From Lachnospiraceae bacterium (GTDB lineage: Bacteria > Bacillota > Clostridia > Lachnospirales > Lachnospiraceae), in the NCBI GenBank assembly GCA_017473115.1, contig JAFUNC010000002.1, forward strand, positions 89,218 through 153,217: a stretch of DNA of 64,000 nt, read 5' to 3'. This document shows positions 3,692 to 57,099 of the stretch, piece by piece. The position numbers and the translations under genes were made by a program. The stretch's first letter is position 1; the number at the start of each line of letters is the position of its first letter. The notes beneath the pieces were generated by a model. That model was given only the letters and a program-made list of their open reading frames with translations. It was not told the DNA's origin and made no database searches.

Positions 3692-6331
3692 ATGGAAAAA
3701 TACTTATCGAAAATTCAACCGAAACATTATGGTTTGGTTGCGTTTGTTTTGACCTGTTTGTCAATGTATATGATGTTTTCGTACGAAGAAGTGTTAAGTA
3801 CAGGAAGATATATCATTATGGAAGGTGACCTGTTCCATCAGTACGTTCCTTTTATCAAAATGTTTGTCAGAGATATATTGCAAGGCGAAAACCCCTTTTT
3901 CTCATGGAGTTTATCCATGGGAATGAATACGTCGCTCTGCTATGCTTATTATGTGTTAAGTCCGTTTAATTTGCTGTATTTGATTTTATACGGTGTGGAT
4001 GAAAATATTGTTACTGCTATTGTTATCATATTGAAATCAGGCTTAGCGGCATTTTTGTTCCAACGATTTGTTGCCAGGCACTTAAAATGTACCGGCGTAG
4101 AATCGATTGTTTTTGCCATATGTTATGCAATGTGCTCTTTTCAGGTAATATTTAACGTGATTCATATCGCGTGGATGGATGCGCTATATTTGTTGCCGTT
4201 GCTTTGCGGTCTGCTTATTTCTTTTGTAAAAGAGGGTAAGTGGAAAGCACTGGTGATTACATATGTATATTTATTTGTGGTACAGTTTTACATGGCCTAT
4301 ATTGTGGGGTTCTTTTCATTATTGTTTTTGCTGTGTGTAATCGTATGCAGTACCGAGATAAAAGTGAAAAAAACAGTTATAATGTTTCTAAAATATATCG
4401 GAATTGTGTTGTTGGCAATTGGAGCAACGGCAGTTATATGGTTGCCTGCCATTTTGTTTCTTATTGGGAATGTTGTACCGACAGAAGCATCCGTGGCATT
4501 GGAACTTACGGTCTTTGATGTTATTAAAAATATGTTTTGGGGACAGATGCAGGGATATGAAGGAATCTATCCATACGTGTACTGTGGAGTGCCGGCATTG
4601 ATTTTATTGCCTTTATTTTGGGGAAATAAAAAGATATGTCTGAAATACAGAGTGTGGGGCGGCATTTTACTTTTTGTTTTATTTTGCTTTATGTTGATAG
4701 AACCGTTATACTTTTTTATACACGCGTTTGATGTGCCGAATCAGTTTGGTTTTCGGTTTGCCTTTTTAATTAGTTTTTTGCTTTGTTGCATTGGGTGTTA
4801 TCAATACAGGAATGCGGACAGGCATTTTACCAAAGGTATGCTTTGCATTCCGGGCGTTGCAATTCTGTTGTACGCACTGGCTGTCATAATAAACGGAAAT
4901 AATGATAGCAGTGGGGCAGATTGGTTTCCATTGATGGTATCGGTTGCGTTTATGCTTGGTTGGATTGGCAGTATGTGGCTTTTGCAGAAAAAAACGCAAA
5001 AAAAGGTTTTGGTGGCAGTGTTTTGTGTTTTTTTGGTTATGGTTGAATTGGTTTCTAACGGTTATGTTTGTTTTCAATATTCGGGGCCGGAAACACATGA
5101 CAGGCAATATACCAATTACCGCAACAGCATAGACTATGCAATGCAGGAATTGGAGCAGGATCAAAGTTTTTATCGTGTAATATATTATAATGATTTTAAT
5201 GATAATTCCGATTCGTGGTTTGGATATAACGGAATGACGGATTTTAATTCTTCAATGAATGTTGTCCATCAAAAAGCAATGCGCAATTTGGGGCATATTT
5301 CCGGTGGGAATATGAATTACACCGTTGGTAATACTCCTGTTACGAGAATGTTGTTTGGGGTTAAATATTTGATTTACGGAATTCATCCGAATATGACAGC
5401 GGTGCAAATGCCGGATCCTTCCATTGCGATGTGCGAGCAGGTGTTGTCTTTGGGCTATATGGTTGATGAGGCTGTGTTGGACTGCGGAATGGCTGATAAT
5501 TATGTATTTGATAATATGGATGCGGTATTAAGCAGTATGATTGGGAAAAAAACGGATTGTTTTCAGGAAATACCGGAAGAAATGATTGACATAACCGAAG
5601 AAAATGCAACGCTGAAATTTGAAGATAATATGTTTGCAATATACCGGGCCAGTGAGAATGAAGACTGCGGATATGTAAGATACAGTGTCAGCGGTGAACC
5701 CGGCCAAACAGCGTATGTTCAGTTTGTGAGGGAACATATATATTTTTCGGACCAATCGCCGATTTTGCTTGGCGGAATTGAGAACAGTATTGAAGATATG
5801 GGATGCTTAACGGCATCTTATGCCAAGGAACTGATTCCTGTGGAGAACGGTTATGAGGTTGTGGTAGAGATGAGACCGGAACATGTACCCATGATTCGGT
5901 ATGAGTCGGCCGATTTCTTTTATTTAAACCGGAGCGAATTAGACAAGGCATACGATATTTTATCTCAAAATCAAATGAATGTGGAAGAATATGCCAATGG
6001 CTATGTAAAAGCAAATGTTACAGTGCCACAGGAGAAAACCGTTCTGTTTACCAGTATTCCTTATGATGAAGGATGGACCGTATATGCGGATGGTGTTGAA
6101 ACACAAACGGTAGCGGTAATTGATGACGCTTTTCTGGCATTGGAATTGGAGCCGGGATACCATGATTTGGAATTCCGGTATGAAGTTCCGGGAGCGAAGA
6201 TGGGAATGGGTGTTTCCGCGGTATCTGTCGGAATATTTGCAATATTCGTAATAACCGATTATATTAAAAAGAGAAAGAACAAAGCGAAGGAAGGAACAAT
6301 AGAACCCGATGTCGAAGATAGAACAGAGTAA
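3692..6331 (+). CDS. yfhO: YfhO-family polytopic membrane protein
   Basis: An 879-residue protein. After a short basic start come about a dozen hydrophobic segments through residue ~465, including the family-typical region [15 protein letters not shown] around residues 46-60. A soluble domain of about 370 residues follows, with a final membrane segment and a charged tail at the C-terminus. The YfhO family is related to GT-C type glycosyltransferases and is linked in some Firmicutes to decoration of teichoic or lipoteichoic acids; the donor here is unknown. The acidic GD in the first loop is the usual GT-C-like catalytic position. The last 23 bases overlap lepA, so the two are probably translationally coupled, although their functions are not obviously related. 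Confidence 0.8.
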
Positions 6332-48537: not shown

Positions 48538-49902
48538 TTATCTGTTTTCGATGGGAAGATAAGGCATATCTTCATGGATAGGTCTGTATGCAGGACGGAT
48601 AATTTTACCGTTGTTTGCAAGTTCTTCCAGACGATGCGCGGACCAGCCTACAATTCTTGCCATGGCAAACATGGGAGTATAAAGTTCGTGAGGAAGCCCT
48701 AACATGTTATAAATAAATCCGGAATAGAAGTCTACGTTGATACTTACGCCCTTATACATCTTGCGTTCTGCAGCGATAATTTCAGGAGCAAGACGTTCTA
48801 CAAGAGAGTAGAGTTCAAATTCAGCCATAAGACCTTTTTCTGCGGATAAGTCATCTACGTACTGTTTTAAAATAACGGAACGGGGGTCTGACTTGGAGTA
48901 AATTGCATGACCTACACCGTAAATCAAACCGGCATGATCAAAGGCCTCTTTGTGAAGCAGTTTCTTTAAGTAATTACTTACTTCATCTTCATCCTTCCAA
49001 TCTTTTACCTGTTTTTTCATATCTTCAAACATCTGTACAACCTTAATGTTGGCGCCGCCGTGACGGGGACCTTTTAAGGAACCGATTGCTGCTGCAATTG
49101 CGGAGTAAGTATCGGTTAAGGTTGAAGTTACAACGTGAGTAGTAAAAGTAGAGTTGTTACCGCCACCATGTTCCATATGAAGTACCAAGGCAATGTCAAG
49201 TAATTGAGCCTCGAGAGGTGTATATTTACTGTCCGGTCTTAACATATGCAGAATGTTTTCTGCAGTAGATAATTCGGGCTGAGGATTGTGAATATACATA
49301 CTCTTGCCGTCATGATAATGATTATAAGCATGATATCCGTAAATGCTCAGCATGGGGAACATGCTGATAAGTTGTAAGGATTGTCTTAATACGTTGGGCA
49401 AAGAAGTGTCATCTGCTCTGTCATCGTAAGAGTAGAGTGTCAGAACACTTCGTGCAAGAGTATTCATCATATCCTTACTGGGAGCTTTCATAATAATATC
49501 ACGTACAAAACTTGTAGGCAGAGTACGATAGCCTGCCAACATTTGCTTGAAGTTTTCAAGTTCTTTTGCATCCGGTAATTTATCGAAAAGAAGCAGATAG
49601 GTTACTTCTTCGAAACCAAAACGATTCTGTTCTGCAAATCCTTTTACTAAATCTTTTACATTATATCCGCGATAGAAGAGTTCGCCGTGAGTAGGAACCT
49701 GCTCACCGTTTACCAATTTGTTTGCGCGTACGTCTGAAATATGGGTAAGACCGGCAAGAACACCTTTGCCGTTCAAATCTCTTAAACCACGTTTTACTTC
49801 ATATTTTGTAAAAAGTTCGGAATCTATGACTCCGTGCTCACTACACATATTCGCTAAACGGATAATATCGGGTGTTATTTCACAGTACTTATTGTATTCC
49901 AT
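48538..49902 (-). CDS. gltA: Citrate synthase family enzyme
   Basis: A 454-residue type-II-like citrate synthase. ELFYRGYNVKDLV starts the active core; MEHGGGNNSTFTTHV (His), LKGPRHGGANIKV (His) and IYGVGHAIYSKSDPR match the conserved His/Asp/Arg sites. The length and N-terminal SELFTKYEVKRGLRDLNGKGVLAGLT fit the clostridial citrate (Si/Re-uncertain) group; citrate versus 2-methylcitrate cannot be told by eye. The gene stands alone, with an AGAAAGGTGG ribosome binding site and its own promoter. Confidence 0.92.
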   Translation of the reverse strand: MEYNKYCEITPDIIRLANMCSEHGVIDSELFTKYEVKRGLRDLNGKGVLAGLTHISDVRANKLVNGEQVPTHGELFYRGYNVKDLVKGFAEQNRFGFEEVTYLLLFDKLPDAKELENFKQMLAGYRTLPTSFVRDIIMKAPSKDMMNTLARSVLTLYSYDDRADDTSLPNVLRQSLQLISMFPMLSIYGYHAYNHYHDGKSMYIHNPQPELSTAENILHMLRPDSKYTPLEAQLLDIALVLHMEHGGGNNSTFTTHVVTSTLTDTYSAIAAAIGSLKGPRHGGANIKVVQMFEDMKKQVKDWKDEDEVSNYLKKLLHKEAFDHAGLIYGVGHAIYSKSDPRSVILKQYVDDLSAEKGLMAEFELYSLVERLAPEIIAAERKMYKGVSINVDFYSGFIYNMLGLPHELYTPMFAMARIVGWSAHRLEELANNGKIIRPAYRPIHEDMPYLPIENR

Positions 49903-49986: not shown

Positions 49987-50096
49987 GTAAAAATTCCAGA
50001 ATATGCAAAAAGTTAATATTTTCAACACAAAATGTACACATTCTATGGTAAAATAAAGGAGTCCCAATTTGTTTTGATGTATAAATATAAAAAAGA

Positions 50097-50247
50097 TGCA
50101 GGAAGAATTATTTTATATTCCAACAGAACACACTCGCGTTCGGTTGAAAACGTAACGGTACTAAACTCGTACTGCATTGCATTTGTACTCGTCAAGTACC
50201 GACGTTTTCAAAACGGTTCTTTATGGAATAAAAATATTCTTCCTGCA
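50097..50247. repeat. Structured palindromic repeat, copy 1
   Basis: A 151-base element in the 414-base spacer between gltA and the next gene. The outer arms TGCAGGAAGAAT / ATTCTTCCTGCA are perfect and continue with TATTTTATATTCCA facing TGGAATAAAAATA. Inside, TTGAAAACGT / ACGTTTTCAA, GGTACT / AGTACC and GTAC / GTAC make a nested stem closed by the loop TGCATTGCATTT (50173-50184). A second copy lies at 56854-57003. The middle strands and loop are almost identical in both, while arms change together and still pair. Either a conserved RNA or a mobile palindromic repeat; orientation of function is unknown. Confidence 0.85.
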
Positions 50248-50316
50248 TTCGTTTAGATTGCGTAAATCAACACAAATTGAACTCTTAATATTAAACATTT
50301 ATGTGAGGCATAGATT

Positions 50317-50871
50317 ATGGAATTAAAATTTGATGCCAATGAAGTTTTGCAAGAACGATTAGCTTCAAGTATGGGATTAAATAAATATCAATTTATAATT
50401 GGTCAATTGAATAAAACTGATATATCTACCAATGAAAATTTTCAAAGAGTTTTCAATGGATTCTACATAGTTAGAAGAAACGAGACATGGAGAAAAGTAT
50501 ATTATGAATATTTTGAGCACGTTAAAAATGAAAAACCTACTTTCGCAAGTATTTTGATGTACTTATATGAGAAGACAGGAAACATAGAACCATCATTTGC
50601 AAGTAAGATGCTTGCAACCATAATTCCGGAAAAACCAATATGGGATCATTATGTTATTCAGAATTTAAATTTAAAGTTGGTTGGTGCAACGAAAAGAGAG
50701 AGATTAGAGAATGCCATAGCAATCTATTCCGATATTGAAAAATGGTATGAAGATTTTCTGCAAACAGATGAAGCAAAAGAATGTATTGAAGTATTTGACC
50801 GTATGCTACCAAAGTATAAAAATATATCAAGCATAAAGAAAATAGATAGCATTATTTGGAGTATAAGATAA
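50317..50871 (+). CDS. Hypothetical protein, 184 residues
   Basis: Not recognised. A soluble, helix-rich, basic protein (no membrane segment or signal peptide). Notable pieces: YIVRRNETWRKVYYEYFE, SILMYLYEKTGNIEPSFASKMLATI, and KPIWDHYVIQNLNLKL, in a pattern seen in helical unknown-function proteins. Base composition is clearly more AT-rich than the flanking genes and the codon choice differs (many ATA, AAT, AAA), which suggests recent acquisition. It sits 70 bases downstream of repeat copy 1 and before pepP. Start has GTGAGG upstream. Possibly a stress or defence gene; that is only a guess. Confidence 0.6.
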   Translation: MELKFDANEVLQERLASSMGLNKYQFIIGQLNKTDISTNENFQRVFNGFYIVRRNETWRKVYYEYFEHVKNEKPTFASILMYLYEKTGNIEPSFASKMLATIIPEKPIWDHYVIQNLNLKLVGATKRERLENAIAIYSDIEKWYEDFLQTDEAKECIEVFDRMLPKYKNISSIKKIDSIIWSIR

Positions 50872-53745: not shown

Positions 53746-53751
53746 ATAACT

Positions 53752-53968
53752 ATCCTGAAATGTTCGAGAACTCTCGTTATTTTGAACCTACAAAACTTTA
53801 AACGGGATTCCTATATTGCTTTGCCTATGTCAGGCCTCACCGGATCTCAGTGGAAGGCAGAAGTAAAGTTGCGGTCGCCCACCTAGCCATAGCTAGGAGT
53901 CAAAATACGGGAACCGGCATTTTGGGTATTACGTGAAGACAAAGGGCGACTCTCAATGAGTCGCTTTT
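53752..53968 (+). ncRNA. ssrS: Probable 6S RNA (SsrS)
   Basis: A 217-base non-coding unit with its own promoter and terminator. TTATTTTGA near the 5' end pairs with TCAAAATA near 53899, enclosing a large region with a central hairpin built from CTTTGCC and GGCAGAAGTAAAG; this gives the closed-stem, open-centre look of Firmicutes 6S RNAs. The ACTTTAAACGGG and CCCACCTAG pieces resemble clostridial 6S sequences as I remember them. 6S RNA mimics an open promoter and sequesters SigA holoenzyme. An SRP RNA was considered because of GTCAGG, but the GGAA tetraloop and AGCAG side are missing. Confidence 0.6.
53942..53968 (+). terminator. Terminator of the 6S-like RNA
   Basis: GCGACTC / GAGTCGC with a five-base loop, extended by flanking AAGG / TTTT pairs and ending in TTTT. 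Confidence 0.75.
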
Positions 53969-56559: not shown

Positions 56560-56820
56560 GAAGTGAAAAATAAAGGCAGTGAAGGTGTTGAGTAGATTGC
56601 TTGTTTCGTGCAGAGAGAGGAGGTCGTCGGCTGGAAGCCCCCTTACGTTCAGGAAGTAATTGAAGTTCCCACCGGAGCCGGTTTCCCCAAGCGCAGGTGA
56701 GTAAGGAAGCCCGTGTAAGACGCGTTAAGTTGTAATGAGTGTCCTTAATTGGAAAATAGGGTGGTACCGCGGAATTGAAGTTTCGTCCCTTGTCATTTTA
56801 TGACAAGGGACTTTTTTTGT
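56560..56820 (+). promoter_or_regulatory. T-box riboswitch, phenylalanine type
   Basis: The conserved T-box AGGGTGGTACCGCG lies at 56758-56771. A long structured Stem I region precedes it, and a terminator GTCCCTTGTCA / TGACAAGGGAC with T run follows at 56785-56818. The antiterminator competes with this hairpin. Uncharged tRNA-Phe would bind and allow transcription into pheST. Two TTC triplets (in ACGTTCAGG and AAGTTCCC) could be the specifier; I could not decide which without folding. Boundaries of the 5' end are approximate. Confidence 0.9.
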
Positions 56821-56853
56821 CCGATTTGCTTCATTGTGTGTTTGCGTATGATG

Positions 56854-57003
56854 AGCGTATGGATTATTTTATATTCCAACAGAACACGCTCTCGCTCGGT
56901 TGAATACGTAACAGTACTAAACTCGCAGTGCATTGCATTTCTGCTCGTTAAGTGCTGACGCATTCAAAACGGTTCTTTATGGAATAAAAATATCCATACT
57001 GCT
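56854..57003. repeat. Structured palindromic repeat, copy 2, inside the pheST leader
   Basis: A 150-base element between the T-box terminator and pheS. The outer arm TATGGAT / ATCCATA replaces the GGAAGAAT / ATTCTTCC arm of copy 1 yet still pairs. The middle strand TATTTTATATTCCAACAGAA and the reverse half GGTTCTTTATGGAATAAAA are the same as copy 1. The inner stem reads TTGAATACGT / ACGCATTCAA (one mismatch), AGTACT / AGTGCT, GCAG / CTGC, with loop TGCATTGCATTT identical. Read-through transcripts of pheST must contain the hairpin, so it might affect expression; no test possible here. Confidence 0.85.
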
Positions 57004-57099
57004 AGTTAGTTTATTGAAACACAATGAACCAAATCGTCGTAATAGAAATAGTAATTTGCAAGTACATTCAGTGACGAATTAATATATGGAGGAAGAGAA

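Follow-up and report, generated by a model that had tools for sequence, protein, structure and literature searches.

The window is a 64,000-nucleotide stretch of a Lachnospiraceae bacterium contig in which one intergenic hairpin element is present twice. Copy 1 is flanked by a minus-strand gene pointing away from it (48538-49902), which we take from its protein sequence to be citrate-synthase-like, and by a small ORF at 50317-50871. Copy 2 sits between a T-box terminator (T-box 56570-56793) and the downstream T-box-controlled gene, presumably pheS; it lies directly behind the terminator in the pheS leader, and co-transcription with pheS is predicted. The window also contains a 6S RNA gene (53749-53932; Rfam RF00013, 60.1 bits), which served as the RNA control.

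Direct reading of the sequence bears out the two paired hairpin copies and the covarying arms described in the sequence-only reading. In copy 1, the arm GGAAGAAT (50101-50108) is complementary to ATTCTTCC (50236-50243); in copy 2, TATGGAT (56858-56864) is complementary to ATCCATA (56992-56998). The loop TGCATTGCATTT is common to both (50173-50184 and 56929-56940). The limits of about 150 nt first assigned to the element locate it correctly but are too short, as the hairpin extends outward to about 220 nt through outer complementarity at about 50060-50284 in copy 1 (AGTCCCAATTTG.../...CAAATTGAACT) and at 56819-57038 in copy 2 (GTCCGATTTG.../...CAAATCGTC). The features are as follows.

50060..50284, + strand: copy 1, whole palindrome with outer arms, approximate ends (arm complementarity; whole-region fold of L001)
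50096..50250, + strand: copy 1, match to covariance model R1 of the first-noted element (G000:C23:139313-139467, 171.8 bits)
50118..50228, + strand: copy 1, core TTCC...GGAA with conserved bulges and internal loops (core boundaries, predicted structure)
56819..57038, + strand: copy 2, whole palindrome with outer arms, approximate ends (arm complementarity; whole-region fold of L002)
56852..57006, + strand: copy 2, match to covariance model R1 (G000:C23:146069-146223, 178.3 bits)
56874..56984, + strand: copy 2, core (core boundaries, predicted structure)

Folded as RNA, the copies have far lower energies than dinucleotide shuffles (z -8.7 for copy 1, -4.9 for copy 2), and folds as single-stranded DNA, for both copies and both strands, also fall below their shuffles (z -10.3, -9.9, -7.5, -6.3).

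The pair belongs to a large, apparently uncatalogued family of hairpin-forming intergenic DNA repeats in gut Lachnospiraceae. BLASTN within the same genome returned 34 matches, one of them the same copy on the opposite strand and several short. The covariance model R1, built from a 47-copy alignment, gave 45 matches at no fewer than 39 distinct places in this genome. Within the genus, 27 of 31 genomes have R1 matches (E up to 0.001). Across Lachnospiraceae, sampled at one genome per genus with this one included, R1 matches 40 of 100 (E up to 1e-4, under stricter filters). A class-wide draw of 291 genomes, again including this one, gave seven with matches (E up to 1e-6); all seven are Lachnospiraceae, of which the draw took in at least ten. 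A degenerate pattern search found at least 118 stretches in named genomes, and among the 80 listed most carry the titles Lachnospiraceae, Clostridiales or other Clostridia. One record titled Bacteroides sp. has the element (L266, JAMPBO010000004.1); this MAG may be misnamed, since the other matches are Lachnospiraceae or Clostridia. The first reading could put no name to these features. The element has no match in Rfam 15 (the window at the gathering threshold, 18 loci at E up to 0.5), in plasmids and phages (copy 1 as sole query) or in viral contigs (one exact pattern). No description of the hairpin family was found in the open-access literature searched.

The arms outside the core are specific to each copy and complementary to each other. 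Over 45 full copies, at 30-100 nt outward, the left arm pairs much better with its own right arm (mean 34.4) than with those of other copies (18.9, sd 4.8); the own partner is strictly best in 24 of 45 rows, a count lowered by the inclusion of orthologues. Further copies with unpaired arms, named at the outset as the outcome that would speak against a selected or copied fold, are not the rule, and some copies have lost outer-arm pairing. In G140 (14 of 16 matches read), core identity averages 96% with a minimum of 89%, while 8-16 nt outside the core agreement between copies is 0.34-0.40, which is too low because the comparison is ungapped and lengths differ, and self-pairing of each copy is 0.79. 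In G070 the stems are related but diverged; the ends and the core that flank them vary rather little. Complementary ends around AGTCCCAATTYG occur in many copies of G000, the genome of the window; elsewhere, as in G070, the ends are different.

In orthologous arms, 587 pairs were compared and 570 were comparable. Double Watson-Crick changes are seen in 15 of the 570, against one to four expected by chance on our own estimate from overall rates. The 60 one-sided losses of pairing comprise 13 G-T, 14 A-C and 33 transversions, with no preference for G-T. Occasional templated correction combined with neutral decay fits these changes better than selection for RNA pairing does.

Two other origins of the arms were considered and rejected. 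The first, that they are inverted copies of the target site, was prompted by L025, L033 and L041, where the right flank contains an inverted copy of the left-hand terminator (CGCCCTAACCGGGCGG in L041), and by the L008 site, where G027 retains only one arm of the element of G001. It was dropped because arms of different copies within a genome are recognisably related and because neither arm is present at the empty pheS and L009 sites. L025, L033 and L041 come from three species, and the arms between the terminator copies are wholly different in L025 from those in the other two. By eye, several copies directly follow terminator-like hairpins. The second origin, insertion into the loops of existing terminators, fails on arms of 20-35 bp, too long for terminators and too alike within a genome.

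The covariation first noted from two copies holds with far more of them, above both shuffled and slid controls. Of the 1645 paired cells in 47 genus copies, standard pairs make up 96.4% and 229 are double-changed; shuffles give 84.1% and 73, and sliding the partners by 1-3 columns gives 34.6-38.7% and at most 30. In 34 rows from 29 other genera, 95.7% are standard and 373 double-changed, against 65.9% and 98 in shuffles; this alignment (A3) is model-aligned, leaning to the model structure, and one row is L118 read a second time, on the opposite strand.

The changes run almost entirely between Watson-Crick pairs. Among 33 copies from the 29 other genera, alternative Watson-Crick pairs fill 362 of 1131 paired cells, against 17 G-U (13 at one pair) and 17 A-C. 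The corresponding figures for the 47 genus copies are 239 of 1645, 34 G-U (20 at the same single pair) and 12 A-C, related copies being non-independent events in all such counts. The 6S RNA of the same genus, taken through the same MAFFT and RNAalifold steps, has G-U in 141 of 1232 cells (11.4%) over 28 sequences, with 4 A-C and 86 alternative Watson-Crick pairs. The G-U share of the element is thus about 1.5% across genera and 2.1% in the genus. We do not attribute this scarcity to the model fit, since G-U counts as a pair when copies are aligned to the model. Stems that change almost only between exact base pairs point to a structure maintained in the DNA itself and not to an ordinary regulatory RNA, the other possibility that the first reading had raised. 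Most G-U cells fall at one stem position beside a conserved bulge (A3 columns 71/152; A2 columns 71/115), which in A3 shows U-A 17 times, U-G 13 times and C-G four times, with U on the 5' side in every G-U. This position may make a special contact.

An asymmetry of mispairs was considered as a sign of RNA made from the + strand, but the initial count of 53 G-T against 17 A-C took in duplicate orthologues and more loosely aligned copies. Stricter G-T to A-C counts, without 12 of the orthologous rows, are 97:71 at 0-100 nt (p 0.053), 11:16 at 0-25, 45:26 at 10-100 (p 0.03) and 19:16 at 25-100. The asymmetry is weak at best as a sign of such an RNA.

Related genomes differ in which sites are occupied. 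At the pheS site, the element is absent in G019 and present with other arms in G001 and G027. At the L009 site it is absent, as aligned, in G001, G019 and G027; at the L008 site in G027 and G019; and at the L019 site in G027. No target duplication or clean-ended insertion was seen at the empty sites, where the flanks are too diverged to place junctions, and gain and loss are not distinguishable there. Relative to their neighbouring genes, 111 copies classified by a rough ORF rule are ++ in 45 cases, -- in 29, +- in 18 and -+ in 14, with one side open in 5. Copies are mostly intergenic and lie in both orientations, with a slight excess on the sense strand.

These observations allow a structured RNA to be weighed, either a cis-acting UTR element or a small RNA, whose fold would be under selection and whose spread would reflect its usefulness in many transcripts. 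The strong covariation, the conserved internal loops, the many copies in probable UTRs or operon gaps, the slight sense excess and the position of copy 2 in the pheS leader all suit such an RNA. It is nevertheless unlikely: G-U pairs are no commoner than A-C and far below the 6S level, pairing losses in orthologous arms show no lean towards G-T, both orientations are used, Rfam gives no match, and the pheS place is empty in G019. A minor RNA role would fit the sense excess (45 ++ against 29 --) and the G-T excess in one arm zone (45:26).

Comparison of flanks yielded ten orthologous sites, and at some of them the core differs while the arms stay. Clear replacement of the core with retention of the arms is seen at four sites, L005b/L045b, L005/L045, L022/L037 and L026/L053. 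At L005b/L045b, the arms are 0.97 alike and the cores 0.81, and the cores are nearer to copies in their own genomes (0.88 and 0.95). The other three follow the same core pattern, with arms at 0.66-0.72 against 0.54-0.59 for the best paralogous arms. Weaker cases are L031/L047 (arms 0.61 against 0.53), L032/L036 (cores 0.90 against 0.91 and 0.94) and L010/L043, where in one of the two a paralogue's arms are at least as close. The arms differ too between L002 and both L051 and L056, and between L025 and both L033 and L041. Sister cores are kept in 3 of 14 orthologous comparisons (L006/L038, L033/L041 and L051/L056). The core tree is poorly resolved and clusters by genome only in part (22 label changes against 27.7 when shuffled, with 0 of 200 shuffles as low), so exchange is partial. 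Cores of a few subtypes thus appear, from their sequences, to be exchanged without uniform homogenisation.

Most copies are solitary, and those that are not show a preferred arrangement. Of 29 neighbouring pairs within 800 nt, 24 are + then -, 5 are direct and none is - then +; G070 supplies seven of the 24 and a single MAG (CANRVK) another four, some regions in the sample were picked for holding two matches, and L083 and L103 represent the same orthologous site. Neighbouring copies lie 27 to 773 nt apart, nearly always + then -, as if the head-in doublet were itself a unit. Neighbouring copies are found at these loci.

L120, L187-L189, L191, L193, L196 (G070); L199, L200 (G101); L083 (own genome); L251, L289; others: loci with neighbouring copies

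The first reading had suggested looking for a linked REP-type or IS200-like transposase. None was found in the own genome (85% complete), which is one of 8 among 13 element-rich genomes that have no Y1_Tnp (PF01797); five of the 8 are at least 96% complete. Of 9 element-poor genomes, 6 have one. No protein family recurs within 2.5 kb of the element in 206 loci, as judged from an all-against-all comparison of 3951 ORFs with inspection of the 25 largest clusters. The clusters inspected came down to spurious ORFs spanning the element, ABC transporters and genes in conserved synteny, with no linked partner gene among them.

A single-stranded DNA hairpin recombination site, resembling attC or the IS200/REP hairpins and read by a recombinase or an HUH enzyme other than Y1_Tnp, would account for the conservation of extrahelical bases in a Watson-Crick hairpin that covaries freely elsewhere, and for the fixed head-in arrangement of neighbours, with no pair in the opposite order. 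We consider it a doubtful explanation, given the hosts in which Y1_Tnp is absent, the lack of any protein family recurring beside the element in those loci, and the origin of about half of the head-in pairs in one or two genomes. Less probable again are old, dead repeats without present movement or function, in which pairing is restored only by template switching during replication. The double Watson-Crick changes in orthologous arms, found alongside 60 free one-sided mispairs, agree with this, and template switching has been published as an origin of compensatory changes that span several bases (part of PMC8794818). Dead repeats leave unexplained the nearly identical cores of G140, the conservation of loops across genera and the arrangement of neighbours.

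REPINs are the nearest published case. As described in part of PMC3116915, they too are short, non-autonomous intergenic palindromes with inverted neighbouring units, and combine a conserved stretch with one required only to fold into a hairpin, where compensatory changes are reported. The Lachnospiraceae element differs in having its inside, the core, conserved and its outer arms variable, in a hairpin of about 150-225 nt, and in the absence of a Y1 transposase from most of the hosts tested. Each element is one long hairpin, usually solitary, with neighbours mostly in + then - order. The conserved foot of a REP is a GTAG (or CGTC) tetranucleotide in the palindrome, according to part of PMC3733652, and an older review cited in PMC3116915 asks in its title whether REPs evolve by gene conversion. 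Since most of the element-rich genomes lack the transposase, the element is not classed as a REPIN; a REP or REPIN proper, mobilised by a RAYT (TnpA_REP), is highly improbable despite the intergenic hairpins, the inverted neighbours and the compensatory changes also described for REPINs (part of PMC3116915), given that Y1_Tnp is missing from element-rich genomes and found in element-poor ones, and that conservation is concentrated within the hairpin and not at its feet.

Other known repeats share single properties. The MITE-like bcr1-bcr3 of Bacillus cereus are likewise dispersed, often in UTRs or operon gaps, and resemble mobile elements (part of PMC3446304); by description they are set apart from the present element by its near Watson-Crick-only covariation, its replaced cores and its occurrence in many genera of one family. 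A parent transposase, as expected of a MITE, does not recur within 2.5 kb of the element in the 206 loci. Template-switch hairpins likewise have multi-base compensatory changes and arms homogenised by arm-to-arm copying (parts of PMC8794818 and PMC8604942), although template switching is a mutation process and not an element, and leaves dispersal and core exchange unexplained. The bacterial stem-loop repeat families, 92 in 40 genomes, are also interspersed intergenic repeats with a common predicted fold; their likeness to this element, from part of PMC2267715, is by description only.

Taken together, the element is probably a dispersed, non-autonomous DNA palindrome of Lachnospiraceae, REPIN- or MITE-like in its way of life but assigned to neither class. 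Its unit is a long hairpin, with a core of about 106-113 nt that carries conserved bulges and internal loops, set inside arms that need only be complementary. The dispersed, mostly intergenic copies, the differing presence between related species, the near Watson-Crick-only covariation, the copy-specific self-complementary arms and the swapping of cores between retained arms at some orthologous sites support this, and with it the earlier suggestion of a copying mechanism or mobile palindrome. Against it, neither the Y1_Tnp search nor the comparison of neighbouring genes turned up a mobilising enzyme, and no clean insertion event was seen.

Under such a DNA element, the hairpin would act as DNA, either extruded or single-stranded during replication. 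Ectopic recombination (gene conversion) would carry cores from one resident copy to another, and the arms would stay complementary through templated copying of one from the other, either by template switching or during the copying that movement involves. Copies would be made by a putative trans-acting enzyme that reads the conserved core. Hairpin cleavage and conversion are given their roles here from general background or by inference. Indiscriminate arm-to-arm copying would erase the conserved bulges and loops, so sequence selection on the core must also act. A more specific and only tentative version is a mobile DNA hairpin that homes into other copies of itself: its core, folded as a single strand, would be copied in place of a resident core through a putative single-strand recombinase, leaving the local arms, while stems would be rewritten arm from arm, keeping the pairing almost without G-U intermediates across the family.

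Covariation is usually read as evidence of functional RNA. Here a hairpin family combines massive covariation with a DNA-level mark, the near absence of G-U, measured against an RNA control from the same genus; scarcity of G-U is a simple way to separate RNA selection from the upkeep of a DNA hairpin. The family, which reaches dozens of copies in the genomes of some hosts and is present in 40 of the 100 genera sampled, is a large natural data set for the study of hairpin copying and repair and of core passage between repeats. It is also a widespread gut-bacterial repeat, which automated searches for new RNAs might misread as a regulatory RNA.

More distant relatives, with the same architecture and little shared sequence, occur at or beside sites of the main family.

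G001, L008 site (L088, about 5507-5746): distant relative
Own genome, C2:189731-189890 (L083 1432-1591): distant relative
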